From the NCBI RefSeq assembly GCF_013170845.1, contig NZ_CP033367.1, forward strand, positions 5,705,001 to 5,769,000: a DNA stretch of 64,000 nucleotides, given 5' to 3'. Every line of letters begins with the position of its first letter. Position 1 is the first letter of the stretch. The notes under the pieces are model-generated. The model was given only the letters and a program-made list of their open reading frames with translations. It ran no database searches and was not told the origin of the DNA. The translations under genes and the position numbers were made by a program. Source of the stretch: Mesorhizobium loti R88b (GTDB lineage: Bacteria > Pseudomonadota > Alphaproteobacteria > Rhizobiales > Rhizobiaceae). This document shows positions 46,120 through 60,635 of the stretch, in pieces.

Positions 46120-46133
46120 AGCGCGGCAATCTT

Positions 46134-46284
46134 TAGTTGGGCCATGATCTCGGGACAAACGAAACCGTTTGTCCGAGAAAACCGGTTCCCACTTTTTGCT
46201 TCGCTGACCTTCGGTTCGGGATTATGGCCCTTAGCTGGGCCATGATCTTTTCCGAAAACCGGTTCCCACTTTTCGGGATCATGG
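46134..46284. repeat. Tandem copies of a dispersed rhizobial repeat
   Basis: TAGTTGGGCCATGATC (46134) and TAGCTGGGCCATGATC (46232) each precede GAAAACCGGTTCCCACTTTT (46177-46196 and 46254-46273). The first unit also has a perfect hairpin GGACAAACG-AAAC-CGTTTGTCC near 46152-46173. The block fills the convergent gap between the unknown protein and tmm and may end transcription from both sides. Confidence 0.7.
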
Positions 46285-47904: not shown

Positions 47905-48612
47905 ATGGCGCAAGACAGTTCTAATCCCAAGGCTGGGCTTGCCGGCGCCAAGCCAAAGGTTTCGGCCGACGGCAAGACCATCCGGGCACCGCTGACGCAG
48001 AACCCGCACGCCATCCGCGACACCCGCGAAAAAGTGCTGGAAGTGGCGATCGGCCGCGAGGTGCGGGCGTTCCGCAAGAAGCTCGGCATCACCGTAGCTG
48101 ATCTCGCCGTTGCCACCGACATTTCGCTGGGCATGCTGTCGAAGATCGAGAACGGCATCACCTCGCCGTCGCTGACCACCTTGCAGGCACTGTCACGGGC
48201 GCTCGGCGTTCCCGTCACCGCCTTCTTCCGCCGCTTCGAGGAGGAGCGCAGTGCCGTTTTCGTCAAGGCCGGCCAGGGACTGGACGTCGAGCGCCGCGGC
48301 ACGCGCGCCGGCCACCAGTACAATCTGCTCGGCCATATCGGCTCCAACACCAGCGGCGTCGTCGTCGAACCCTATCTGATCACGCTGACCGAGGATTCGG
48401 ATGTGTTCCCGACCTTCCAGCATGAGGGCATGGAGTTCCTCTACATGCTGGAGGGCGAGGTCGTTTACCGGCACGGCAGCAACCTCTATCCGATGAAGCC
48501 CGGCGACAGCCTGTTCTTCGATGCCGATGCGCCGCATGGCCCGGAGCAGCTGACGAAACTGCCGATGCGGTATCTGTCGATTATTTGCTATCCGCAGAAT
48601 AGTGCGGGGTAA
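47905..48612 (+). CDS. XRE-family regulator with cupin domain, probable regulator of methylated-amine genes
   Basis: The 235-aa protein has a 45-residue N-terminal extension, an HTH_3 domain (VRAFRKKLGITVADLAVATDISLGMLSKIENGITSPSLTTL) and a C-terminal cupin (FQHEGMEFLYMLEGEVVYRHGSNLYPMKPGDSLFFDADAPHGPEQL). It is divergent from tmm and convergent with the dmm operon. This position at the centre of the island makes it the best candidate for sensing a methylated amine or a metabolite. The ligand is not known. Confidence 0.88.
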   Translation: MAQDSSNPKAGLAGAKPKVSADGKTIRAPLTQNPHAIRDTREKVLEVAIGREVRAFRKKLGITVADLAVATDISLGMLSKIENGITSPSLTTLQALSRALGVPVTAFFRRFEEERSAVFVKAGQGLDVERRGTRAGHQYNLLGHIGSNTSGVVVEPYLITLTEDSDVFPTFQHEGMEFLYMLEGEVVYRHGSNLYPMKPGDSLFFDADAPHGPEQLTKLPMRYLSIICYPQNSAG

Positions 48613-48619
48613 GATTGGC

Positions 48620-48807
48620 GATCTCCCTCCTCGTGGGGGAGATGTCCGGCAGGACAGAGGGGGGCGCTGTTCCGCCGACTTATCAATCGATCGTAATCTA
48701 GTCACGACCTCAAAGGTTGGAGGTCTTTCACCGGAGGTGGGCAAGGGCTGGCGCTCTACGGCGCCCCCCTCTGCCCTGCCGGGCATCTCCCCCACGAGGG
48801 GGGAGAT
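48620..48807. repeat. Large inverted repeat element between convergent genes
   Basis: The left arm 48620-48667 and the right arm 48761-48807 are reverse complements with only a few mismatches (GTGGGGGAGATGTCCGGCAG against CTGCCGGGCATCTCCCCCAC). Each arm forms its own small hairpin, and the 93 bases between show no gene. It is an analogue of the element at 6505-6647 and probably a non-autonomous palindromic repeat. It may also end both converging operons. Confidence 0.75.
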
Positions 48808-48827
48808 TGGCAGCGTCGCTGGCAGCT

Positions 48828-49868
48828 TTAGTCCGGCCCAAACCCCGGTGACGTCGCACTGCCATCATCGAGCTTCGACAGCCATTCCACCAATGTCGGA
48901 CGAAAGCGCGTCAGGCCCTTGTAGGTGGCGAGTTCGTCCGGCAGGTCGCGGATGACGCGGTGAAGCCGGCGTGCCCATTTCGGCTGCGTCACCAGTTCGT
49001 CCATCTTGATCAGATAGCAGCGGATCGGGAAGACGATGCCGTTGGAGCGCGGCAGCCGCCAGAAGCTTTGCAACTCGACGCGCAGATGCACCTTGTCGCC
49101 GACATTCTCCGGCGTCACGGTCGTCCGATCCGGTCCCCATTTGTGGTAGTTTTCCGGGCTGGTATCGAGACGCGGATTGATGGTCATCGTCCAGTTCAGG
49201 CGCCGCGCCGGCTTGCCCTGCTGGATGTTGGTGAGGAATTTCAGCGCCCTGGTAAAAATCCCCTTCTCATGCGCCAGCGGCACCGGCGCGTGCCATTCGA
49301 AGAAATTCATGCCGATGTCGAAATCGAGCGACCAATCGGCTTGCGTGGTGACCATGCCGGCATCCATCCACAGATTGCCGTCGCGCTGGTCGAGGATGCA
49401 GAAATCGCCCTGGCTCTGGCGGGTGATGTATTCCATCGGCCCGTAAGGCAGGGTCGAGGTGTCGCCGAAGGTAAAGGTGTCGTCGATGCCGAGCGGCCGG
49501 TTGATCCAGCGCCAGCGGTCGCCGTTGCGTGTCAGCGTGAAATGCTCGGGATAGCCGAGCGCCTGCTGTTCCATCAAAAGCTCCAGCAGGTCCCAGCCGG
49601 CCAGCGTCATATGCGGCAGCGACTGGCAGCGCAGCGGATCCTCGGCCAGCACCAGCGCACGGTCCTGCATCTCGGCAACATAGTGCTCGTCGACGTCGAT
49701 CAGGTTTTCCAGCACCGAGCCCTTGGTGCCGACGACATGCGGCTCGATGTTGACCGCATACATGTAGGCGTCTTCGTGGAACGGGAACGGAAACCGCCTG
49801 ATGTGTTCCGGGCTGTTCTTGAAGGTGAAATCGTCGCGGAACGTTTCCTTGCGAAAGGTGATGCCCAT
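48828..49868 (-). CDS. dmmC: Dimethylamine monooxygenase heme subunit (DUF3445 / HODM alpha)
   Basis: This 346-aa protein is of the DUF3445 family, which contains the heme-bound PAS-like catalytic subunit of the oxidative N-demethylase. FPFPFHEDAYMYAVNIEPHV opens it. LRVELQSFWRLPRSNGIVFPIRCYLIKMDEL is the conserved core, and RLHRVIRDLPDELATYKGLTRF follows it. The enzyme removes one methyl group from dimethylamine. A strong TAGGAGG precedes the ATG. It is the last gene of dmmDABC; the letter follows the order in Ruegeria and is inference. Confidence 0.88.
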   Translation of the reverse strand: MGITFRKETFRDDFTFKNSPEHIRRFPFPFHEDAYMYAVNIEPHVVGTKGSVLENLIDVDEHYVAEMQDRALVLAEDPLRCQSLPHMTLAGWDLLELLMEQQALGYPEHFTLTRNGDRWRWINRPLGIDDTFTFGDTSTLPYGPMEYITRQSQGDFCILDQRDGNLWMDAGMVTTQADWSLDFDIGMNFFEWHAPVPLAHEKGIFTRALKFLTNIQQGKPARRLNWTMTINPRLDTSPENYHKWGPDRTTVTPENVGDKVHLRVELQSFWRLPRSNGIVFPIRCYLIKMDELVTQPKWARRLHRVIRDLPDELATYKGLTRFRPTLVEWLSKLDDGSATSPGFGPD

Positions 49869-49877
49869 GATTTCCTC

Positions 49878-50843
49878 CTACCGCTCCAGCACCAGCGACC
49901 GGCCTTCGAAGCGCGACACGCACGGCATGATCTTGCAGCCGGAGCGATGCTCTTCCTCGCTCAGCCAATGGTCGTTGTGGATGAACTTGCCGTCATGAGA
50001 GATGACGTTGGTCTCGCATTGGCCGCAGACACCGCCGCGGCAGAGATAGGGCGGATCGACGCCGGCCGCCTCGATCGCTTCGAGCAAGCTCTGCTGCTCG
50101 CCGACACGGATGGTCTTGCCGCTGACGGCAAGTGTGACATCGAAGGGCAGGCCGGGCTGGGGCGCGGCGAAATGCTCGAAATGCACGGCCTCCGACGGCC
50201 AACCCAGGCTCGCTGCGCGGTCACGCACCCAGTTGATCATGCCGGCCGGACCGCAGACATAGAGATGCGTGCCGAGCGGCTGTGTCGACAGCAGACGGTC
50301 GAGTTCGATGCGCTCCTCGCGGTCGTCGTGGTAGAGCCTGATGCGCCTGTCGTAGCGCTCTCGCAGCACATCGGCATAGGTGCCCAGCGAAGCGGTGCGG
50401 CAGGTGTAGTGCAGTTCGAAATTGCCACCCTCCCCCGCCAGTTGCGCGGTCTGCGCCATGAATGGCGTGATGCCGATGCCACCGGCCAGCATCAGGTGTT
50501 TTTTGGCGCGCAGGTCGAGCGAGAACAGGTTGACGGGATAGCTGATCACCATCTCCAGCCCGGGCTTGACGGAGCGATGCATGAACAGCGAGCCGCCGCG
50601 GCCGACATCGTCGCGGCGCACCGAGATGGTGTATTCGCGCGTGTCGAGCGGCGACCCCATCAGCGAATAGGGATTGAGCCTTGTGCGCTCGCCATCGCGC
50701 ATCTCGACCACGACATGGGCGCCGCCGGAGAAGGTCGGCAGAAGCTCGCCGTCACGGCGGCGGAAATGGAAGCGGGTGACCAGATCGTTGACCGGAACGA
50801 CATCGCTGACGACGACATCGAGCTTGGTGGTGCCGGTGCTCAT
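49878..50843 (-). CDS. dmmB: Dimethylamine monooxygenase reductase (PDR/VanB type)
   Basis: The 321-aa reductase has an FMN-binding segment RLNPYSLMG (residues 55-63), an NAD(P)H domain starting at GGIGITPF (121-128), and a C-terminal 2Fe-2S ferredoxin with Cys268, Cys273, Cys276 and Cys308 (CRGGVCGQC). It passes electrons from NAD(P)H to the heme subunit encoded nine bases downstream. AGGAGG precedes ATG 50843; the frame extends to 51020 without support. Its start overlaps the dmmA stop by four bases. Confidence 0.9.
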   Translation of the reverse strand: MSTGTTKLDVVVSDVVPVNDLVTRFHFRRRDGELLPTFSGGAHVVVEMRDGERTRLNPYSLMGSPLDTREYTISVRRDDVGRGGSLFMHRSVKPGLEMVISYPVNLFSLDLRAKKHLMLAGGIGITPFMAQTAQLAGEGGNFELHYTCRTASLGTYADVLRERYDRRIRLYHDDREERIELDRLLSTQPLGTHLYVCGPAGMINWVRDRAASLGWPSEAVHFEHFAAPQPGLPFDVTLAVSGKTIRVGEQQSLLEAIEAAGVDPPYLCRGGVCGQCETNVISHDGKFIHNDHWLSEEEHRSGCKIMPCVSRFEGRSLVLER

Positions 50844-51436
50844 GGGAAGGCCTCCTCGATTGGAGGAATCTCCGAGCGATCCTCGGCATTGATGCACACG
50901 CCCTGGAAAGCGGCCAGGCGCCTGGAATAGTGATCGCGCACCAGGAGCAGGAGGCCGCAATGCGCGCAGGTCGCCGGCTGCGTCGTCACGTTCTCGGTGA
51001 TGCCCTTGCAGTGCACGCACTGCATGCGCCGCGCCAACGAACCGCGATGCTCTGTCTGCATGGAGGTGTGGTCGATGCCGGCTTCAAGGGCCACCTGCAT
51101 GGCCTGGCCGATCAAGCCTTCGGTGCCGGCGAGGTAGAGGCGCAGGCCCATATGGGCGTTGGTCAGCGTCTGCTTCAGCCGGGGCAGCAAACTGGCAAAG
51201 GATGGCGCCTGGTGAAACTGCGCTGGTTTGAGCGCTTCGAGGGCGCCGACATGCTTGCCGTCAGGGCCGGGAATGAAGACGATCTCGGCCCCGTCGAAGA
51301 AGCCGGGCGGGGCCGTCCTTGCCATATCAACGATCGCCAGCGCGCCTTCCGCATCCGCCAGGAAAAGATGATGCTTGCCGGGCTGCGGAGACAGGGTTCC
51401 GTAAATGGGCCGGCTGATGATGGTCTTGGCTGCCAT
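50840..51436 (-). CDS. dmmA: Dimethylamine monooxygenase subunit, DmmA family (zinc-ribbon tail)
   Basis: The 198-aa protein has an N-terminal alpha-beta part that looks like a degraded NAD-binding domain (GLRLYLAGTEGLIGQAMQVALEAGI). A C-terminal ribbon follows with Cys140, Cys143, Cys157 and Cys160. A DRSEIPPIEEAFP tail ends the protein. It corresponds to the small accessory subunit found between the GcvT-like and reductase subunits in known dimethylamine monooxygenase operons. Its exact role is not settled. Confidence 0.8.
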   Translation of the reverse strand: MAAKTIISRPIYGTLSPQPGKHHLFLADAEGALAIVDMARTAPPGFFDGAEIVFIPGPDGKHVGALEALKPAQFHQAPSFASLLPRLKQTLTNAHMGLRLYLAGTEGLIGQAMQVALEAGIDHTSMQTEHRGSLARRMQCVHCKGITENVTTQPATCAHCGLLLLVRDHYSRRLAAFQGVCINAEDRSEIPPIEEAFP

Positions 51437-51476
51437 TCTCTCTGTTTGCCCTAAATCCCTCGCTGTCGATAATGCC

Positions 51477-52610
51477 TCAACCCTTGGCGGTGCGTTTGGT
51501 TTTCTTCGGATCGTCGAAGGGAAGCGGCTGCGCCGTCGCCTTGATCGATCCGCTCTTGTTGCGGATTTCGAGCTTGGTGTCCTTGACCGCGCAGTCGACG
51601 TCGAGGCGGGCGATGCCCATCGATTTCTTGACCAGCGGCGAATACATGGCGCAGGTCACCACGCCGACCTTTTTGCCGTCGCGATAGACCGGCGCGCCTT
51701 CGTCGGCCGGCTCCTTGCCGTCGAGCAACACGCCAAAAATCTTGAAGCGCTCCTTGCCCTTCAGCCGATAGTGCTCCTCGGCGCCGCGAAAGCCGGTCTT
51801 GCCGGGGCTGACGGTGAAGTCGAGGCCGAGTTCCCACAGCGTGTCGCCGGGGCCTTCATTCTCGAACGGATACTTTTGCGAATTGTCGTAGGGGTAGAAC
51901 AGCAGGTAGCTCTCGACGCGCAACATGTCGAGCGTGGTGAAGCGGCATGGAATGATGCCGGCGCTCTTGCCCTCTTCAAGAATCCTGTCCCAGATCGTGC
52001 CGGCATCCTGGCCGCGGCAGAAGATCTCGTAGCCGCGCTCGCCGGTATAGCCGGTGCGCGAGATCATCACCGGGAAGCCGAACAACTGCGTCTGCATGTG
52101 ATGGAAATAGTTGAGGTCGCGAATACCCGGCACATGCTTGGCGAGATAGTCGACCGCGGTCGGCCCCTGCAACGACAGATCGTGCAGATTGTCGTCGAAG
52201 CGCAGCGAGACATCGCGGCCGACGGAAGCGCGCTGCAATTCCTCATGGCCGGTGCCCGAACCATGCACGACCATCCAGGCGTTCGGCCCGGTGCGGTAGA
52301 GGATGCAGTCGTCGGTGAATTTGCCGGCTTCGTTCAGCATGCATGCATAGGCTGATTTGCCGGGGTAGATCTTTTCCACGTCGCGCGTGGTGGCGAGGTC
52401 TATGAGATGCGAGGCGTGCGGCCCTGTGATGTGGACCTTCTTCAGGCCCGAAACGTCCATCAGCCCCGCCTTGGTGCGGATGGCGATGTATTCCTCGTCA
52501 GCGTCCTTGTCGTAAGTCCAGGCGGTCCCCATGCCGCTCCAGTCTTCGAGCTTCGAACCCAGCGCGCGGTGGCGATCCGCTAGGGTCGAAAATCTCCAGG
52601 ATGCCGTCAT
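51477..52610 (-). CDS. dmmD: GcvT-like folate-binding subunit of dimethylamine monooxygenase
   Basis: From ATG 52610 the protein is 377 aa and resembles the glycine-cleavage T-protein. MDVSGLKKVHITGPHASHLIDLATTRDV is the N-terminal folate fold, SRTGYTGERGYEIF the central motif, and PGKTGFRGAEEHYRLKG lies in the C-terminal part. In the N-demethylase complex this subunit presumably captures the released formaldehyde on tetrahydrofolate. GGAGG lies upstream; the longer frame to 52724 is unsupported. It begins the leftward operon D-A-B-C. Confidence 0.87.
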   Translation of the reverse strand: MTASWRFSTLADRHRALGSKLEDWSGMGTAWTYDKDADEEYIAIRTKAGLMDVSGLKKVHITGPHASHLIDLATTRDVEKIYPGKSAYACMLNEAGKFTDDCILYRTGPNAWMVVHGSGTGHEELQRASVGRDVSLRFDDNLHDLSLQGPTAVDYLAKHVPGIRDLNYFHHMQTQLFGFPVMISRTGYTGERGYEIFCRGQDAGTIWDRILEEGKSAGIIPCRFTTLDMLRVESYLLFYPYDNSQKYPFENEGPGDTLWELGLDFTVSPGKTGFRGAEEHYRLKGKERFKIFGVLLDGKEPADEGAPVYRDGKKVGVVTCAMYSPLVKKSMGIARLDVDCAVKDTKLEIRNKSGSIKATAQPLPFDDPKKTKRTAKG

Positions 52611-52788
52611 CCGCTCGTCCTCCGTTAAAAATCTGCTGTTCCCTGCTCCTTGTGGCACGGAGGCCGGAGCTTTGGGTTGAATATTGACCGCAAACGCGGG
52701 AGAGCCGCAATCCCCTGAAAGCAAATAATTTCATTGTCAGGCAAAATCAGCCGCGCCTTGCAAACGGTTAACTCTGCGTAAATTCGCC

Positions 52789-52843
52789 TTGACAATTGCG
52801 GAAAACGGCTTGAGTTTATGAAAAAAATTTCACTCTGTTGAAA
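52789..52843 (+). promoter_or_regulatory. Putative promoter and TTTCA-N6-TGAAA site before the small-membrane-protein operon
   Basis: TTGACA stands at 52789-52794 without a convincing -10. The inverted repeat TTTCACTCTGTTGAAA (52828-52843) lies 56 bases before the first gene. A related half-site, AATTTCATTGTCAG, occurs at 52727-52740 on the dmmD side. A matching repeat, TTTCA-TGTGAT-TGAAT, lies before mgsA. Confidence 0.45.
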
Positions 52844-52898
52844 GAGGACGGCGCACGGTGAGTTCGGAACCGGGCGTCGGAAAAAAGGGGAAAAACCG

Positions 52899-53186
52899 AT
52901 GTCAGACCTGCAGCAGCGCATCGAAGCGCTGTACCGCTCCGACGTGCGCGGATCCGTGATCCTGATCGTCTGCCTTTGGGCAACTATCCTTTTCGTCCTC
53001 GTGATGACCTGGCCATACATTCCCGACAGCGGCATCAAGCTCGTGGTCGCGGTTGCCGCCGCGGCCGTGCTGATCTTCAACACGGCCGCCATCCTGGCGA
53101 TGGTCAACCACTACAAGGAAGACAAGGACTTCATCTACGGCCTCGACATCAAGAACGCCGACGCGTCCCGCAACCGCAAGTCCTGA
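52899..53186 (+). CDS. Small two-helix membrane protein, possible transporter accessory 1
   Basis: The 95-aa product was not recognised. A short cytoplasmic helix (SDLQQRIEALYRSD) precedes two membrane helices (GSVILIVCLWATILFVLVM and VVAVAAAAVLIFNTAAILAMV). A charged tail follows (NHYKEDKDFIYGLDIKNAD). It is the first of three tiny membrane proteins directly upstream of an APC permease, all on one strand with short gaps, so a joint function in transport of a methylated amine is the simplest reading. That is inference from position. Confidence 0.7.
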   Translation: MSDLQQRIEALYRSDVRGSVILIVCLWATILFVLVMTWPYIPDSGIKLVVAVAAAAVLIFNTAAILAMVNHYKEDKDFIYGLDIKNADASRNRKS

Positions 53187-53197
53187 GGGGAGAAACC

Positions 53198-53575
53198 ATG
53201 TCCCGCTACATACCGCCGGATCAGAGCAAGGCCGGGCAAGTCTTTGATATCGCCGTCGTCGTCGTCGCCATTTTCGTGGCGCTGTGGCTGCCGTTGAAGC
53301 TCGGCCTCGCCGGTGCCGCGAAATCCATCGACGCGCTCGACGCCAAGACCTGGGAAGCGCTTGGCCAGAATCCGACCATGGCCGGTATCTGGGAAAAACT
53401 CGGCTACACGCCGGAGACCGCGCATGACGTCATCCAGAACCGTTTCCACTATGTCATCGATTGGCCGACGCTGATCATCATGGCCGTCGTCTTGATCGCC
53501 TATTTCGTGTTCCTGTTTCGCGCATCCGACCGCGAGTATCGCGACGTCATCAACGAAAAGTTCGACGACAAGTAA
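53198..53575 (+). CDS. Small two-helix membrane protein, possible transporter accessory 2
   Basis: The 125-aa product was not recognised. One membrane helix (VFDIAVVVVAIFVALWLPLKLGL) is followed by a soluble linker with short helices (IDALDAKTWEALGQNPTMAGIWEKLGYTPE). A second membrane helix (IDWPTLIIMAVVLIAYFVFLF) ends in a charged tail (RASDREYRDVINEKF). GAGGGGAG precedes ATG 53198. It follows the 95-aa gene after 11 bases and precedes the 53-aa gene. Confidence 0.7.
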   Translation: MSRYIPPDQSKAGQVFDIAVVVVAIFVALWLPLKLGLAGAAKSIDALDAKTWEALGQNPTMAGIWEKLGYTPETAHDVIQNRFHYVIDWPTLIIMAVVLIAYFVFLFRASDREYRDVINEKFDDK

Positions 53576-53609
53576 TAGTTTCGACTACGAGCAGGATGGG
53601 GACAAGATC

Positions 53610-53771
53610 ATGTGGGTGGCACTCTCTTACGCTTGCTGGGGCATCTCGATCATCCTCGCGCTGTGGATGCTTTACGACTGGTTCAAGGTCGATACGACTT
53701 ATTCCGAGGAGGTCCTGACCTCGTCGCGCGAAGGCGAACTTGAAGCCGCTTCCGAAGAACACCGGATCTGA
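53610..53771 (+). CDS. Very small single-helix membrane protein, possible transporter accessory 3
   Basis: The 53-aa product begins MWVALSYACWGISIILALWM, a single membrane helix ending in LYDWFKVDTTYSE, with an acidic tail rich in Glu (EEVLTSSREGELEAASEEH). AGGATGGGG lies upstream of ATG 53610, and the reading frame continues cleanly between two expressed-looking genes, 34 bases after one and 14 before the other. Too short for many gene finders. It was not recognised. Confidence 0.65.
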   Translation: MWVALSYACWGISIILALWMLYDWFKVDTTYSEEVLTSSREGELEAASEEHRI

Positions 53772-53785
53772 GTGGGGATTGAAAA

Positions 53786-55180
53786 ATGACGACCGCGCTT
53801 GAACCGGCAATACACGGCGACAGGGTTTCGCTACTCAGGGTGCTCGGCCCGGCCCATGTTTGGGCGCTCGGCGTCGGCATCGTTCTGGTCGGCGAATTCA
53901 CCGGCTGGAATTTTTCCGCCGACAAAGGTGGTACGCTGGCAGCCCTGATCGTGTGCTGGGTCGTGGGCCTGCTCTACACATCCGTCGCCATGATCGATTC
54001 CGAGGTCACGTCGACCGTTGCCGCCGCGGGCGGTCAATACGCCCAGGCCAAGCACATTGTCGGCCCACTGATGGCGTTCAACGTCGCGCTGTTCCTGGTC
54101 TTTGCCTACACGATGCTGGAAGTGTCCGACGCCATCCTGCTCGGCGACACGATCGTTGCCAAGGCAGGGGTCGAGGGGCTCACCCACAATTCCTTCATCG
54201 CCGCGACCATCGTGGTTCTGGCATGGCTCAACTATCGCGGCGTGCTGATGACGCTCAACGTCAATTTCGTCATCACCGCGATTGCCTATGTCTCCATCGT
54301 CATCCTGTTCTTCTCGGTCAGCCCGTGGACGCAAGGGGCGGTGCTGAAGCTCAATGAACTGGTCACGCCGGGCAATGCCCTGCCCTATGGCTGGATCGGC
54401 GTCATCGCCGCTTTCCAGTTCGGCATCTGGTATTATCTCGGGATTGAAGGCACCACGCAGGCTGCCGAGGAAGTGCGCTCACCCGCGCGCTCGCTGCCCT
54501 ACGGCACGATGGCCGGCATGATCACGCTGCTCATCGCCGCCGCCATGACCTGGTATGTCTGCGCCTCGCTGATGCCATGGGAATATCTCGGCATCACGCC
54601 CTACCCGCTTTGGGACGCAGGTAAGCTCACCGGCAGCCCGCTGCTCGAAAACCTGCTGTTCATCGCGACGCTGCTCGCCGCCATCGCCTCGGCCAATGGC
54701 TGCATCAATGACGCGGCACGCGCCTGGTTCTCGCTTGGCCGTGACCGCTATCTGCCGAGCTGGTTCTCGGCGGTGCATCCGAAGTACCGCACACCCTACC
54801 GCTCGATCCTGTTCCTGCTGCCGATCGCGCTGGCCTTCGCCTTCATCGCCGACCTCAACCAAGCGATCACCTTCTCGATCCTGTCGGGCGTGCTGCAATA
54901 CACCTTCATGAGCATCAACATCATGATGTTCCGCAAGAAGTGGCCGCTCGGCACGATCCGTCGTGGCTACACGCATCCGTTCCATCCGCTACCGGCGATC
55001 GTGCTGTTCTGCCTGTGCGTGGTCACCTTCTTCGCCATCTTCCTCGGCTTCGGTTCGCAGCTGAGCGCCATGGTCGCCTTCTATTTTCTGATCTCCGTGT
55101 GGTTCCATTTCTATCGCTACAAATTCGTGCGGCGCGGCGACCAGTTCACCATGCCGTGGCCGAAACCGCAGGGCTATTGA
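53786..55180 (+). CDS. APC-superfamily permease, probable amine or amino-acid importer
   Basis: The 464-aa permease has about twelve membrane helices. It shows LGPAHVWALGVGIVLVGEFTGWN in the first unit, as in ethanolamine/amino-acid permeases. GIEGTTQAAEEVRSPARSLPYGTMAG is the conserved motif after TM6. It lies between dmm and mgs genes and immediately after three small membrane proteins. A methylated amine (mono-, di- or trimethylamine) or an adduct is the likely cargo. This is context inference; sequence alone says amino acid/amine permease. Confidence 0.8.
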   Translation: MTTALEPAIHGDRVSLLRVLGPAHVWALGVGIVLVGEFTGWNFSADKGGTLAALIVCWVVGLLYTSVAMIDSEVTSTVAAAGGQYAQAKHIVGPLMAFNVALFLVFAYTMLEVSDAILLGDTIVAKAGVEGLTHNSFIAATIVVLAWLNYRGVLMTLNVNFVITAIAYVSIVILFFSVSPWTQGAVLKLNELVTPGNALPYGWIGVIAAFQFGIWYYLGIEGTTQAAEEVRSPARSLPYGTMAGMITLLIAAAMTWYVCASLMPWEYLGITPYPLWDAGKLTGSPLLENLLFIATLLAAIASANGCINDAARAWFSLGRDRYLPSWFSAVHPKYRTPYRSILFLLPIALAFAFIADLNQAITFSILSGVLQYTFMSINIMMFRKKWPLGTIRRGYTHPFHPLPAIVLFCLCVVTFFAIFLGFGSQLSAMVAFYFLISVWFHFYRYKFVRRGDQFTMPWPKPQGY

Positions 55181-55188
55181 TGGGAGAC

Positions 55189-55213
55189 GGCCCGTCCGGA
55201 TGCCGGATGGGCC
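55189..55213 (+). terminator. Hairpin after the APC permease gene
   Basis: GGCCCGTCCGG (55189-55199) pairs with CCGGATGGGCC (55203-55213) over eleven positions, including one G-T pair, around a three-base loop. No T-run follows, and the next gene starts 12 bases later. It may reduce rather than stop read-through. Confidence 0.5.
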
Positions 55214-55225
55214 AGGCATGACAAA

Positions 55226-55915
55226 ATGTCCGAAGTGACATCAGCACTGGTTGCCGGAGCAATTGTCGCGGCTCTCGCTTTTCATTTTACGTGGCTTGCC
55301 CGCCGCAGCCGCAACAGGGCTTCAGCGGCGCTCGCCGCCGACGAGGTTGGCATTCGTACCGTCATTGCCGGAGCCGCTGATGTTTCGGACGGCACTGCCG
55401 GCGTCATCACCTGGGAAGGCTCGTGGAATGGGCAGCGTGTCCAACTGCGGACCATCGTCGATACGCTGGCAACAAGAAAACTGCCTGCACGCTGGCTCAG
55501 TGTCTCGATCACCGAAAAGGTCGCGGTGCCAGCCACCTTCGATATGATGATGCGGCCGGGCTCACCGACGACCTTCTCCAATTTCGACCATCTCCAGCAC
55601 ACGCTCCCAAAGGCACCGGGATTCCCAGCCGAGGCGGTGCTGCGGACAGACCTCAGGGGGGCGCGCTTTCCGCAGGGCCTCATTGCCGACCATCTCGAAC
55701 TCTTTTCCGAAGGACGCGCCAAGGAATTGCTGATCACGCCGAACGGCGTGCGCATTGTCTGGCTGCTGGCCGAGGCCGAGCGCGCGCGCTACGGTGTTTT
55801 CCGGCAAGCCGCGTTCGGTGACGCGCGGATCGATCCGGCGCTGATACGGCGGCTGCTCATATCCCTTTCGGCGCTGCGCGACGCCATCAACCAAAGCGAA
55901 CGGCAAGCCGCATGA
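55226..55915 (+). CDS. Unknown protein with N-terminal membrane anchor
   Basis: The 229-aa product was not recognised. An N-terminal helix (VTSALVAGAIVAALAFHFTWLA) is followed by basic residues, so the bulk may sit in the cytoplasm. The remaining domain contains GVITWEGSWNGQRVQLRTIVDTLATRKLPARWL and a helical C-terminus (IRRLLISLSALRDAINQ). It overlaps the next gene by four bases (ATGA) and follows the APC permease, so it is part of the island operon. Confidence 0.65.
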   Translation: MSEVTSALVAGAIVAALAFHFTWLARRSRNRASAALAADEVGIRTVIAGAADVSDGTAGVITWEGSWNGQRVQLRTIVDTLATRKLPARWLSVSITEKVAVPATFDMMMRPGSPTTFSNFDHLQHTLPKAPGFPAEAVLRTDLRGARFPQGLIADHLELFSEGRAKELLITPNGVRIVWLLAEAERARYGVFRQAAFGDARIDPALIRRLLISLSALRDAINQSERQAA

Positions 55916-56241
55916 CCAGCTCAGACACCTCTCCGGCGCCGGTGAGCCCTTATCTCGTGCTCGGTGCGGCAATCGTTTTGCCAGCAAGCGGCCATGTCAT
56001 TCTGGGCGTGCCGGTGCGCGGGCTGCAGTTTCTGTTCTTCATGGTGATCCTGGCCTGGGTCACCGCCAGGATCGCGCCGCCCGACGCCAGCTTCATCGGC
56101 CGCCATGCCGGCGGCTTCCTGATCTATGCGCTATCCATTCTGGACGCCTACAAGTTCGCTCGTGTCCGCCACGCCCGATGGGTTCACAATGCCGCGCAGG
56201 GCAGCAATAATTCGCATGGCGGCATCACGCCGCATACGTAA
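55912..56241 (+). CDS. Unknown small membrane protein
   Basis: The 109-aa product has hydrophobic segments at about residues 13-32 (PYLVLGAAIVLPASGHVILG), 36-52 (LQFLFFMVILAWVTARI) and 65-80 (AGGFLIYALSILDAYKF), and a basic C-terminus. Its start overlaps the upstream stop. The G-H-(V)-x(9)-R-G-x(2)-F pattern recalls small membrane proteins of the TM2-like or DUF-type class, but no family was recognised. It ends 85 bases before mgsA. Confidence 0.6.
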   Translation: MTSSDTSPAPVSPYLVLGAAIVLPASGHVILGVPVRGLQFLFFMVILAWVTARIAPPDASFIGRHAGGFLIYALSILDAYKFARVRHARWVHNAAQGSNNSHGGITPHT

Positions 56242-56326: not shown

Positions 56327-57223
56327 ATGTGTGGAATTGTCGGACTGTTTTTGAAGGACAAGTCGCTGGAGCCGCAGCTCGGTGCGATGCTGTCGGAGAT
56401 GCTGGTCTCGCTCAGCGATCGCGGCCCGGACAGCGCCGGCATCGCCATCTATGGCGCGCCCTCCAAGAATGAGGCCAAGATCACCATCCAGTCGGCGAAG
56501 CCGGGGCGCGATTTCCCTGGCCTCGATACCGAGCTTGCCAAGGCGATCGGCGTGCCGGTGAGCATCGCGGTGAAATCGACCCATGCTGTCGTCAGGACCA
56601 GCCCCGACAAGATCGATGAGGCCCGCGAGACCATTCAGGCGCTGCGCCCCGATATACGCATCATGGGTGCCGGCGACGTCGTCGAGATCTACAAGGAGGT
56701 CGGCCTGCCGGAGGCGGTCGTCGATCGCTTCGACGTTCGCAAGATGACCGGCACGCATGGCATCGGCCATACCCGCATGGCGACGGAATCGGCGGTGACG
56801 ACGATGGGCGCGCATCCCTTCTCCACCGGCGCCGACCAGTGCCTGGTACACAATGGCTCGCTGTCCAACCACAACAATGTTCGCCGCGAACTGATCCGCG
56901 AGGGCATGAAATTCGAGACCGAGAACGACACCGAGGTGGCGGCCGCCTATCTCTCCTCACAGATGGCGCATGGCAAGAACCTCGGCGAAGCGCTGGAAGG
57001 CACGCTCTCCGACCTCGACGGTTTCTTCACCTTCGTCGTCGGCACCAAGAACGGCTTTGGCGTGGTACGCGACCCGATCGCCTGCAAGCCGGCCGTGATG
57101 GCCGAGACCGAGCAGTATGTCGCCTTCGGTTCGGAGTATCGCGCGCTGACCAAATTGCCCGGCATAGACAATGCGAGGGTCTGGGAACCGGAGCCCGCAA
57201 CTGTCTATTTCTGGGAGCATTGA
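56327..57223 (+). CDS. mgsA: N-methylglutamate synthase subunit A (glutamine amidotransferase)
   Basis: The 298-aa class II glutamine amidotransferase begins MCGIVGLF, so Cys2 becomes the catalytic N-terminal nucleophile. RGPDSAGIAIYG, GHTRMATESAVTTMGAHPFS and VHNGSLSNHNNVRREL are the usual GATase II motifs. In N-methylglutamate synthase this subunit acts on gamma-glutamylmethylamide and delivers methylamine. GGGAGG precedes ATG 56327. MgsB follows after four bases. Confidence 0.92.
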   Translation: MCGIVGLFLKDKSLEPQLGAMLSEMLVSLSDRGPDSAGIAIYGAPSKNEAKITIQSAKPGRDFPGLDTELAKAIGVPVSIAVKSTHAVVRTSPDKIDEARETIQALRPDIRIMGAGDVVEIYKEVGLPEAVVDRFDVRKMTGTHGIGHTRMATESAVTTMGAHPFSTGADQCLVHNGSLSNHNNVRRELIREGMKFETENDTEVAAAYLSSQMAHGKNLGEALEGTLSDLDGFFTFVVGTKNGFGVVRDPIACKPAVMAETEQYVAFGSEYRALTKLPGIDNARVWEPEPATVYFWEH

Positions 57224-57227
57224 GTTC

Positions 57228-57959
57228 ATGCCGGCAACCAAACTTTCAAAGGCGGCGGCGAGCGACCACGCCTCCCGGGTGTTCGACCTCGATGTGTCGT
57301 CGCTGCGCGAGCTCAACCAAGCGCTTCACAATCTGGCTCCTGGCTCGAATGAAACGGCATGGGAGGTCCTCCATCCGAAGGGCAGCCATTCCGTGGCCGT
57401 CGGTGTCGACCAGCCTGTCTCCATCGATGTACGCGGCAGCGTCGGCTATTACTGTGGCGGCATGAATTCCGGCAGCGCCATTACCGTTCATGGCTCGGCC
57501 GGCCCCGGCGTCGGCGAGAACATGATGTCGGGCTCGATAACCGTGAAAGGTGACGCCAGCCAATATGCCGGCGCCACCGGCAAGGGCGGACTGCTGGTCA
57601 TCGAGGGCAATGCCTCGTCGCGCTGCGGCATTTCGATGAAGGGCATCGACATCGTCGTGCACGGCAATATCGGCCACATGTCCGCCTTCATGGCGCAGTC
57701 CGGCAACCTCGTGGTGCTGGGCGATGCCGGCGATGCGCTGGGCGATTCCATCTACGAAGCGCGGCTCTTCGTGCGCGGCAAGGTCGACAGCTTAGGGGCC
57801 GACTGTATCGCCAAGGAAATGCGGCCCGAGCATCTGGAGTTGCTGCAAGGCCTGCTCGACCGTGCCGGCGTGACAGGCGTCAAGCCGTCGGAGTTCAAGC
57901 GCTACGGCTCGGCACGCACGCTCTACAATTTCAATATCGACAACGCCGACGCGTATTGA
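57228..57959 (+). CDS. mgsB: N-methylglutamate synthase subunit B (GXGXG domain)
   Basis: The 243-aa protein is a right-handed beta-helix of the glutamate-synthase GXGXG type. Its repeated Gly-rich turns include DVRGSVGYYCGGMNSGSAITVHGSAGPGVGENM, SGSITVKGDASQYAGATGKGG and GNIGHMSAFMAQSGNLVVLGDAGD. It is the structural bridge between amidotransferase and FMN subunits. It starts four bases after mgsA and ends six before mgsC. Confidence 0.92.
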   Translation: MPATKLSKAAASDHASRVFDLDVSSLRELNQALHNLAPGSNETAWEVLHPKGSHSVAVGVDQPVSIDVRGSVGYYCGGMNSGSAITVHGSAGPGVGENMMSGSITVKGDASQYAGATGKGGLLVIEGNASSRCGISMKGIDIVVHGNIGHMSAFMAQSGNLVVLGDAGDALGDSIYEARLFVRGKVDSLGADCIAKEMRPEHLELLQGLLDRAGVTGVKPSEFKRYGSARTLYNFNIDNADAY

Positions 57960-57965
57960 GGCAGC

Positions 57966-59294
57966 ATGACCTATCGCAACCCGCCGACGACGCCGCGCAA
58001 ATCCGCGACCTTTGACGACTACACGCTTTCTGAAATCCGCCGCGCCGCGGCGACCGGCATCTATGATATCCGGGGCGCCGGCGCCAAGCGCAAGCTGCCG
58101 CATTTCGACGACCTTCTGTTCCTCGGCGCCTCGATCTCGCGCTATCCGCTCGAGGGCTATCGGGAGCGCTGCGACACATCAGTGGTGCTCGGTTCGCGCC
58201 ACGCCAAGAAGCCGATCGAACTGAAGATCCCGATCACCATTGCCGGCATGAGTTTCGGCTCGCTGTCCGGCCCGGCCAAGGAAGCACTTGGGCGCGGCGC
58301 GACGCTGTCGGGCACCTCGACCACGACGGGCGATGGCGGCATGACCGAGGAAGAGCGCGGCCACTCCAAGCAGCTGGTCTATCAATACCTGCCCTCGCGC
58401 TACGGAATGAATTTGCGCGACTTGCGCCGCGCCGATGCGATCGAGGTGGTCGTCGGCCAGGGCGCCAAGCCCGGCGGTGGCGGCATGCTGCTTGGCCAGA
58501 AGATTTCCGATCGCGTCGCCGAAATGCGCACGCTGCCGAAAGGCATCGACCAGCGCTCCGCCTCACGCCATCCCGACTGGACCGGGCCTGACGATCTCGA
58601 AATCAAGATCCTCGAACTGCGCGAGATTACCGACTGGGAGAAACCGATCTACGTCAAGGTCGGCGGCGCCCGCCCCTACTATGACACAGCCCTTGCCGTG
58701 AAGGCCGGCGCCGATGTCGTCGTCGTCGACGGCATGCAAGGCGGCACGGCGGCGACGCAGGAAGTGTTCATCGAGAATGTCGGCCAGCCCACGCTCGCCT
58801 GTATCAGGCCGGCAGTGCAGGCGCTGCAGGATCTCGGCATGCATCGCAAGGTGCAGCTGATCATTTCGGGCGGCATCCGCAATGGCGCCGATGTGGCCAA
58901 AGCGCTGGCGCTCGGCGTCGACGCGGTCTCGATCGGTACGGCGGCGCTGGTCGCTCTCGGCGACAATGATCCCCGCTGGGAGGCGGAGTACAATGAGCTC
59001 GGCACGACAGCCGGCGCCTACGACGACTGGCATGAGGGCCGCGACCCCGCCGGCATCACCACGCAGGACCCGGAGTTGATGAAGCGTGTCGACCCGGTGG
59101 CCGCCGGACGCCGGCTGGCGAACTACCTCAAGGTGATGACGCTTGAGGCGCAGACGATCGCGCGTGCCTGCGGCAAGAACAGCCTGCACAATCTTGAACC
59201 CGAGGACCTTGTCGCGTTGACGATCGAGGCAGCCGCCATGGCCGGCGTTCCGCTGGCCGGCACCAACTGGATACCGGGGAAGAACGGCTTCTAA
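57966..59294 (+). CDS. mgsC: N-methylglutamate synthase subunit C (FMN glutamate-synthase-like)
   Basis: The 442-aa protein is homologous to the FMN central domain of glutamate synthase. Landmarks are ITIAGMSFGSLSGPAKEALGRGA, GQGAKPGGGGMLLGQKIS, VKAGADVVVVDGMQGGTAATQEVFI and ISGGIRNGADVAKALALGVDAVSIGTAAL. It reduces the imino product to N-methylglutamate. It completes the three-gene mgs set in the standard order. Confidence 0.93.
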   Translation: MTYRNPPTTPRKSATFDDYTLSEIRRAAATGIYDIRGAGAKRKLPHFDDLLFLGASISRYPLEGYRERCDTSVVLGSRHAKKPIELKIPITIAGMSFGSLSGPAKEALGRGATLSGTSTTTGDGGMTEEERGHSKQLVYQYLPSRYGMNLRDLRRADAIEVVVGQGAKPGGGGMLLGQKISDRVAEMRTLPKGIDQRSASRHPDWTGPDDLEIKILELREITDWEKPIYVKVGGARPYYDTALAVKAGADVVVVDGMQGGTAATQEVFIENVGQPTLACIRPAVQALQDLGMHRKVQLIISGGIRNGADVAKALALGVDAVSIGTAALVALGDNDPRWEAEYNELGTTAGAYDDWHEGRDPAGITTQDPELMKRVDPVAAGRRLANYLKVMTLEAQTIARACGKNSLHNLEPEDLVALTIEAAAMAGVPLAGTNWIPGKNGF

Positions 59295-59327
59295 AACAGC
59301 ATCCAAAATACCAAGCGAGGAACTATA

Positions 59328-60635
59328 ATGGGGAACGATCTCGCCGCTTTCGCCAAAAAGAACGGCGTCAAGTATTTCATGATTTCCTACACTGACCTGT
59401 TCAGTGGGCAACGCGCTAAACTTGTTCCGGCGCAGGCCATTGCCGACATGCAGAAGGATGGCGCCGGCTTTGCCGGGTTCGCTACATGGCTTGATCTGAC
59501 GCCGGCGCATCCCGACATGCTGGCGGTGCCGGATCCGGATTCGGTCATCCAGCTGCCGTGGAAGCCTGAGGTCGCCTGGGTCGCCGCCAACTGCATCATG
59601 GACGACAAGGAGGTCGACCAGGCACCGCGCAACACGCTGAAGCGGCTGATCGCCGAGGCCGCCAGCGACGGCATGCATGTGAAGACCGGCGTCGAGGCCG
59701 AGTTCTTCCTGATCTCGCCGGACGGCAAGACGATCTCCGACGAATACGATACCGCTTCAAAACCCTGCTACGATCAGCAAGCGGTGATGCGCCGCTACGA
59801 TGTCATCGCCGAGATCTGCGACCACATGCTGGCGCTCGGCTGGGGCGCCTACCAGAACGACCATGAGGACGCCAACGGCCAGTTCGAGATGAACTGGGCC
59901 TTCGATGATGCGCTGGCGACCGCCGACAAGCACTCCTTTTTCAAATTCATGGTCAAGTCGATCGCCGAAAAGCACGGCCTGCGCGCGACCTTCATGCCCA
60001 AGCCTTTCCAGGGCCTGACCGGCAATGGCTGCCACGCCCATATCTCGGTGTGGGACAAGGCTGGGAAAACGAATGTCTTCGCCGACAATGCGATGGAGCT
60101 TGGCCTGTCGGCCAAGGGCAGGAATTTCCTAGGCGGCATCATGAAGCATGCCTCGGCTCTCGCCGCGATCACCAACCCGACCGTCAATTCCTACAAGCGC
60201 ATCAACGCACCGCGCACCATCTCGGGCGCGACCTGGGCGCCGAACACGGTGACCTGGACCGGCAACAACCGCACCCATATGGTGCGCGTGCCCGGCCCCG
60301 GTCGCTTCGAGCTGCGCCTGCCCGATGGCGCCGCCAACCCCTATCTCTTGCAAGCGGTGATCATTGCCGCCGGCCTCGATGGCATCCGCTCCAAGGCTGA
60401 TCCCGGCAAGCGCTACGACATCGACATGTACCAGCACGGCCACACAGTGAAGGGCGCGCCGAAACTGCCGCTCAACCTGCTCGACGCGTTGCGCGAGTTC
60501 GACAAGGACAAATCGCTCAAGGCGGCGCTGGGTGAGGAATTCTCGTCGGCCTATCTAAAGCTGAAGCATCAGGAATGGAATTCCTATGCTTCGCACTTCA
60601 CGCAATGGGAGCGCGACCACACGTTGGACATCTAA
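59328..60635 (+). CDS. gmaS: Gamma-glutamylmethylamide synthetase (glutamine synthetase family)
   Basis: The 435-aa enzyme ligates methylamine to glutamate with ATP. It belongs to the GS-III-like GmaS group: MISYTDLFSGQRAKLVPAQAIADMQ at the N-terminus, GVEAEFFLISP, the metal ligands in YQNDHEDANGQFEMNW, FMPKPFQGLTGNGCHAHISVWD, and the substrate Arg in GRFELRLPDGAANPYLL. AGGAAC lies upstream of the ATG. It follows mgsC by 33 bases and precedes the dehydrogenase genes, as in other NMG-pathway clusters. Confidence 0.93.
   Translation: MGNDLAAFAKKNGVKYFMISYTDLFSGQRAKLVPAQAIADMQKDGAGFAGFATWLDLTPAHPDMLAVPDPDSVIQLPWKPEVAWVAANCIMDDKEVDQAPRNTLKRLIAEAASDGMHVKTGVEAEFFLISPDGKTISDEYDTASKPCYDQQAVMRRYDVIAEICDHMLALGWGAYQNDHEDANGQFEMNWAFDDALATADKHSFFKFMVKSIAEKHGLRATFMPKPFQGLTGNGCHAHISVWDKAGKTNVFADNAMELGLSAKGRNFLGGIMKHASALAAITNPTVNSYKRINAPRTISGATWAPNTVTWTGNNRTHMVRVPGPGRFELRLPDGAANPYLLQAVIIAAGLDGIRSKADPGKRYDIDMYQHGHTVKGAPKLPLNLLDALREFDKDKSLKAALGEEFSSAYLKLKHQEWNSYASHFTQWERDHTLDI

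Follow-up and report, generated by a model that had tools for sequence, protein, structure and literature searches.

An APC-family permease and five small companion genes form a conserved unit in a methylated-amine island of Mesorhizobium loti R88b

The genes of the unit

The 64,000-nucleotide stretch of the Mesorhizobium loti R88b genome analysed here (contig NZ_CP033367.1, positions 5,705,001 to 5,769,000; the window) contains a row of six genes, s1, s2, s3, an APC-family permease gene, h5 and h6, which form one conserved unit. An earlier note on this DNA had singled out the first four, with intergenic gaps of 11, 34 and 14 bases (s1/s2, s2/s3 and s3/permease), and had proposed that they act together. 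The four open reading frames (ORFs), their sizes and the gaps are as described there. The proposed unit is indeed a conserved block, but four genes are too few: h5 and h6 belong to it as well. Numbered from the first nucleotide of the window, the genes are:

52899..53186, plus strand: s1, 95 amino acids (aa); two membrane helices; conserved tail FNTAsI-AM-rHY-eDK--IYGlDI--LD
53198..53575, plus strand: s2, 125 aa; two membrane helices flanking a conserved loop pTWe-LgQn ... qWeKLG ... rFdY
53610..53771, plus strand: s3, 53 aa; one membrane helix; acidic tail LtSSrEGeie
53786..55180, plus strand: APC permease, 464 aa; 12 membrane segments; GIVLVGE-x-x-GW in transmembrane segment 1 (TM1) and LGIEG in TM6; Pfam AA_permease, 5.6e-30
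55226..55915, plus strand: h5, 229 aa; one membrane helix and a TtfA/CCDC47-like domain (predicted)
55912..56241, plus strand: h6, 109 aa; two predicted membrane segments; 4-base overlap with the end of h5

Hydropathy gives two membrane segments for s1, two for s2, one for s3 and 12 for the permease, which agrees with the membrane helices attributed to the small proteins in the earlier note. The six frames of the window hold 209 ORFs of 50–130 aa when each is read from its first ATG, real genes among them, and 11 of these contain a 19-residue segment with a mean hydropathy of at least 1.6. The C-terminus of s2 carries a further conserved motif, S-kEYReVIaErFg. All six genes are real and under purifying selection. 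The median ratios of nonsynonymous to synonymous substitution rates (dN/dS) against Mesorhizobium relatives are low for s1 (0.13, 50 pairs), s2 (0.07, 58 pairs), s3 (0.17, 58 pairs) and the permease (0.03, 58 pairs), which identifies these four as genuine genes; the values for h5 and h6 are 0.16 and 0.11 (51 pairs each).

None of the window proteins s1, s2, s3, h5 and h6 matches a Pfam or NCBIfam family at its cut-off, and s3 has no Pfam match even at E 1. Membership of s1 and s2 in a known family of small carrier subunits, such as DUF485, DUF4212 and DUF997, was considered and dropped for want of a Pfam or NCBIfam match: six members each of s1 and s2 gave no hit to Pfam families of this kind at E up to 0.1, a result that leaves room for distant kinship. 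Profiles of s1 and s2 found nothing among the sequences of the Protein Data Bank (PDB) at E up to 5, and DUF485 has no match anywhere in the genome of M. loti R88b itself.

Conservation of the unit

In 149 of the 154 loci that hold a member of the permease clade, s1-s2-s3-APC-h5-h6 occur in this order and on the same strand. Four of the five exceptions (L085, L095, L097 and L184) stop at a contig edge, and the fifth (L135) is a reduced paralogue. The earlier note had named the absence of the small genes, or their separation from the permease, in other methylated-amine degraders as the observation that would speak against it; the reduced paralogue aside, the small genes stay with the permease. 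This paralogue (L135, 8975-10676) is a divergent second permease copy in genome G802, with an s1-like gene only and an aspartate in place of the TM1 glutamate. Loci were fetched mostly by permease and in some cases by s2 similarity, plasmid records by DNA or s2 similarity. The 154 loci are not independent, since 61 of them (the window, L026-L084 and L104) are nearly all from Mesorhizobium and some contigs are counted twice. The other 93 come from Alphaproteobacteria (including Sinorhizobium, Aminobacter, Paracoccus, Pararhizobium, Pseudohalocynthiibacter and metagenome-assembled genomes), from Paraburkholderia, from a metagenome-assembled genome labelled as Gammaproteobacteria (L096) and from another class (G721 and others). 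Methylophaga thalassica and uncultured Hyphomicrobium are further names attached to s2 homologues.

The small genes accompany this permease clade and not its relatives. Among 72,556 plasmid records, 22 encode a permease of at least 60% identity (65–69%), and a search for s2 at E up to 1 picked out the identical 22 accessions. Another 108 records have distant APC carriers only, the best-ranked of which is 27% identical, and s2 was found in none of them at the same threshold. Likewise, five distant carriers, three of them annotated eat, have no match to s1, s2, s3, h5 or h6 at E up to 1 within about 2.5 kb on either side. Genome searches at E 1e-60 located the permease clade in 14 of 398 genomes sampled from the phylum, in 59 of 397 sampled from the order and in 6 of 274 from the class of G721. 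The matches all reach at least 696 bits, the split genes in G1105 and G1211 aside, which gives the clade a sharp boundary.

Some loci depart from the common form. One module (L154, genome G884) has tandem permease genes, s1-s2-s3-APC-APC-h5-h6. In a decaying copy (L180, G1105), the permease, h5 and h6 are each broken into two matches. In Sinorhizobium meliloti Ak57, s3 and the permease share one open frame of 525 codons (L021, 10539-12113). A natural fusion was set aside, because the relatives L229 and L232 have s3 and the permease in separate frames; the Ak57 frame is thus a single-strain change or an error.

The permease and its motifs

The permease belongs to the APC family (Pfam AA_permease, 104.9 bits against a cut-off of 24.6; AA_permease_2, 96 bits against 27). 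Its best NCBIfam match is the ethanolamine permease model TIGR00908 (171.9 bits, below the cut-off of 381.75). In APC carriers, a Gly-x-Gly motif of TM1 binds the carboxylate of the substrate. The GTGIF segment of the APC carrier GkApcT aligns here with VGEF, and VG[E/D] replaces the TM1 Gly-x-Gly in 144 of 145 permeases (143 Glu and one Asp, in L135; the remaining one was unreadable). Three eat permeases have SGEYFGW or SGDFAGW at this position, and LAIEG (two) or LAVEG (one) in TM6 against LGIEG in the permease. Accordingly, the permease carries both (S/V)G(E/D)xxGW in TM1 and L(A/G)(I/V)EG in TM6, a motif pair that we drew from the aligned permease and the three eat sequences rather than from a published definition. 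An acidic TM1 residue would fit a substrate that has a charged amine and lacks a carboxylate.

Judging by sequence comparison, the permease represents a separate clade, distinct from the carrier TmoP. Identity with TmoP was ruled out: the TmoP model NF053774 is not among the 15 NCBIfam families that the permease matches at E up to 1. Another APC protein, from the Paracoccus island (L023, 279-2081), does match this model (834.8 bits, cut-off 690), and the TmoP alignment shows a gap where the permease has its acidic TM1 segment.

The h5 fold and the role of the companions

The AlphaFold prediction for h5 (predicted local distance difference test, pLDDT, 95.6; predicted template-modelling score, pTM, 0.89) has a soluble domain with one membrane helix, and Foldseek and VIA-align liken its predicted fold to those of TtfA and CCDC47, at 6–10% identity. 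Foldseek gave one match at E < 0.001 in the PDB; a Pfam scan of 66 h5 members returned stray weak matches, the best with E 0.039. TtfA is an MmpL3 accessory protein and CCDC47 a component of the multipass translocon, both accessory factors of membrane proteins.

An accessory role for the companions competes with another account, in which the permease imports alone and the small proteins together with h5 are regulators or a sensor branch (a transceptor) reporting the supply of amine. A universal stress protein gene stands between the permease and h5 in 7 loci, and in two (L140, L152) a single open frame of 619 codons joins the permease to a domain of this kind; these arrangements argue for a regulatory branch, as does the apparently cytosolic position of h5 behind its one helix, judged from charges. 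The near-constant presence of all six genes across the loci argues the other way, since regulatory genes usually come and go more readily, and the modelled fold of h5 points to a membrane-protein accessory factor. We consider the regulatory account unlikely.

The surrounding island

The neighbouring genes of the window are:

47905..48612, plus strand: XRE-cupin regulator, found near mgs genes or the module in many loci; likely the regulator of the island
48828..52622, minus strand: dimethylamine monooxygenase genes, the context of the unit, comprising the next four entries
48828-49868, minus strand: HODM_asu-like subunit
about 49878-50843, minus strand: reductase
50840-51436, minus strand: DmmA (PF22290, NF041259)
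51477-52622, minus strand: GcvT-like protein
56327..60635, plus strand: N-methylglutamate synthase-like (mgs) genes and type III glutamate ligase (gmaS/glnT)

The stretch was correctly labelled a methylated-amine island in the earlier note: Tmm (NF058570, 851 bits; cut-off 675), DmmA, the HODM_asu-like subunit and the type III glutamate ligase (TIGR03105, 674.8 bits) surround the unit. The mgs labels follow gene order and pathway anatomy, because NCBIfam gives weak generic matches for these genes; the labels dmmB, dmmC and dmmD were assigned within this analysis, and the published lettering may differ. A 55-nucleotide inverted repeat, 89% complementary (48616-48670 and 48758-48812), lies between the regulator and the dmm genes, and stretches of about 50 nucleotides resembling it also occur in L199 and L200. 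Downstream of tmm, at 46133-46273, are two short direct repeats (20 and 18 nucleotides) in two copies each.

Link to methylated-amine metabolism

The stretches around the 154 loci contain mgs or gmaS in 101 cases, dmm or tmm in 70, and either in 108. The module tracks the N-methylglutamate pathway even where the two are unlinked, and the link is strong, not strict. Thus, among genomes whose module is unlinked from mgs, 25 of 28 have a strong mgsC match elsewhere, compared with 17 of 39 genomes that belong to the same order and have no module (Fisher's exact test, 1e-4 by genome and 0.007 with genera collapsed, the genera themselves still not being independent). The converse fails, as the pathway is frequently present where the module is absent. 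Genome G802 stands outside the count of 28 because its mgs genes lie 9–10 kb away. The 39 are those module-free genomes that were at hand, not all of them; some order-level genomes with no match were left out, as was G040, the module of which is cut by a contig end.

Four congeners have mgsC and no module (G001, G006, G015 and G019). In G001 (L199), the dmm and mgs genes are arranged as in the window, the counterpart of 52793-56138 is gone and a 3' remnant of h6 stays, the state that one deletion of the whole unit would leave. In G015 (L200) and G019 (L201), the slot between dmm and mgs is taken by a 465-aa Amt protein (PF00909; E 1.6e-56 for the L200 copy) together with a protein of 72 aa that has a single hydrophobic segment (9946-10164 in L200, from 9971 in L201). 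In G006 (L202), neither the module nor Amt was found beside mgs. The 72-aa single-helix gene adjoins all five Amt matches of at least 695 bits (L200, L201, L188, L208 and L217) and is possibly a small partner of the Amt channel; the other three of eight (L134, L215 and L226) are distant, at 319–324 bits, and lack it. Since Amt proteins carry ammonium and methylammonium, their presence in place of the module is the strongest individual clue to the substrate, though no more than a clue. A strict either/or of Amt and module near mgs was ruled out by the counts over loci with mgsC and a second mgs or gmaS match: module without Amt in 91, both in 3, Amt without module in 5 and neither in 19. Seven of the 24 module-free mgs loci (L222-L228) come from genomes with a module elsewhere.

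The same observations bear on the idea that the permease moves a pathway intermediate (gamma-glutamylmethylamide, N-methylglutamate or glutamate), for example in recapturing leaked product. That an APC carrier adjoins genes thought to make these amino acids would suit it. Replacement of the TM1 Gly-x-Gly by VG[E/D], as in ethanolamine permeases, does not, nor does an Amt protein in the slot fit an amino-acid role, and we regard an intermediate carrier as very improbable.

Interpretation

In our opinion, held with about even confidence, the six genes encode an APC-type importer unit for small amines with dedicated accessory proteins. Methylammonium or related amines are the probable substrates, and a physical complex of the permease with its partners is plausible. 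The permease, a secondary transporter, would import small protonated amines, most likely methylammonium and perhaps dimethylammonium, which would feed the N-methylglutamate pathway. Binding would involve the acidic residues E37 (TM1) and E221 (TM6) instead of a carboxylate-binding Gly-x-Gly. The s1, s2 and s3 proteins may pack against the permease as structural or gating subunits, and h5, with its TtfA/CCDC47-like predicted fold, and h6 may contribute to assembly, stability or regulation of the complex. A bolder form of the proposal is possible, if less likely than not: an obligate six-protein membrane machine, with s1–s3 as true subunits, h5 as an assembly factor of the TtfA/CCDC47 fold and a two-helix partner, which scavenges scarce methylammonium and is exchangeable with Amt in evolution.

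Several findings weigh against the importer proposal. No clear mgsC is present in three of the 28 genomes where the module is unlinked (G1042, G1140 and G1114, the last having only a paralogue, 42% identical), and the N-methylglutamate pathway does not need the module, because the 17 module-free genomes noted above have mgsC. In G001 and G006, the mgs genes are kept with neither module nor Amt in the stretch around them, and Amt and module occur together in L134 (where the Amt is a distant one, 322 bits), L188 and L208. In one lineage, 15 loci on 12 distinct contigs have a homospermidine synthase-like gene downstream of the module; the one compared with the PDB (L088, 12726-14153) matched 4plp at 1.2e-206. 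In Pararhizobium, a glutamine-synthetase relative with no specific model above cut-off lies just upstream. On the structural side, Foldseek gave h5 modest TM-scores (0.45 and 0.34, relative to query length), and the prediction made for docking, a 764-residue fused read-through chain, was poor (pLDDT 58.1, pTM 0.62). The tie to methylated amines drawn in the earlier note therefore holds in neighbourhood, genome-wide co-occurrence and slot replacement, but not strictly, given the three genomes and the homospermidine synthase-like neighbours.

The homospermidine synthase-like and glutamine-synthetase contexts, together with Aminobacter modules at most 10 kb from serine-cycle genes, make a wider class of amine substrates possible. 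The permease might then be a broader amine or polyamine carrier (for putrescine, ethylamine or ethanolamine-like compounds), the methylated-amine setting being one use among several. Its TM1 and TM6 motifs, like those of ethanolamine permeases, are consistent with this, as are the 46 of the 93 loci outside the Mesorhizobium-dominated set with no mgs, gmaS, dmm or tmm match nearby. Arguing for the narrower substrate are the mgsC matches elsewhere in most genomes with an unlinked module, the restriction of the homospermidine synthase context to one lineage among the loci examined and the occupation of the slot by Amt in two congeners. We view the broader carrier as possible, if doubtful.

Methylamine is a widespread source of organic nitrogen and carbon, and its uptake in aerobic methylotrophs seems largely unassigned. 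As a testable candidate importer, the module would fill this gap. Were the small proteins and h5 subunits or assembly factors, a bacterial APC secondary transporter would have dedicated accessory machinery, and the CCDC47-like fold a bacterial setting beside its presumed client.

Our literature search, covering the accessible parts of the sources, found no description of the six-gene module, which agrees with the earlier remark that no system of this form was known. The accessible parts of papers on dmm/tmm (PMC5520151, PMC13390433), Paracoccus (PMC4543880), Methylobacterium (PMC5017803) and Aminobacter (PMC8235418) between them name trimethylamine N-oxide (TMAO) carriers and an ammonia transporter, and not the module; the carriers in these pathway papers are TmoP, TmoXWV and the ammonia transporter, with none for methylamine. 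In Methyloversatilis universalis grown on methylamine, 'co-clustered conserved proteins' and 'amino-acid permeases' are up (PMC5023235); the accessible table gives no permease locus by which to equate them with the module permease.

Comparison with known systems

The permease shares its acidic TM1 segment with Eat (TIGR00908), and its TM6 LGIEG resembles the LA(I/V)EG of Eat. It differs from Eat in falling below the cut-off of that model, in being only about 25–28% identical to the eat sequences and in its companions, as no module genes lie near the three eat genes. TmoP, which Zhu et al. 2014 reportedly described as the TMAO permease of Methylocella silvestris, is likewise an APC carrier of methylated-amine islands; unlike TmoP, the permease has no NF053774 match, and its acidic TM1 segment has no TmoP counterpart. 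Amt (PF00909) takes the place of the module between the dmm and mgs genes of two congeners, likewise beside a small membrane protein, but belongs to another protein family and coexists with the module in 3 loci. Despite their similar predicted fold, h5 and TtfA or CCDC47 share 6–10% sequence identity and have different partners, and a shared fold shows no function.

Carriers with a partner have precedents in SLC7 heteromers and MetPS. The earlier statement that APC permeases usually work by themselves goes too far, because GkApcT, by sequence the closest solved relative of the permease (PDB 5OQT, 6F34; 6.9e-15), was crystallised with the single-helix MgtS bound at TM5 (PMC5803215). According to the same report, MgtS is an Escherichia coli protein acquired in expression, and initial uptake rates of GkApcT were similar without it (PMC5803215). 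GkApcT thus has one partner and no dedicated genes, whereas the permease has five companion genes. Two-component symporters with a small subunit include MetPS, ActP-YjcH (DUF485) and PanF-YhdT. Analogously to the module, these systems encode a carrier with a small membrane protein; unlike the module, with its five companions, each has one small partner.
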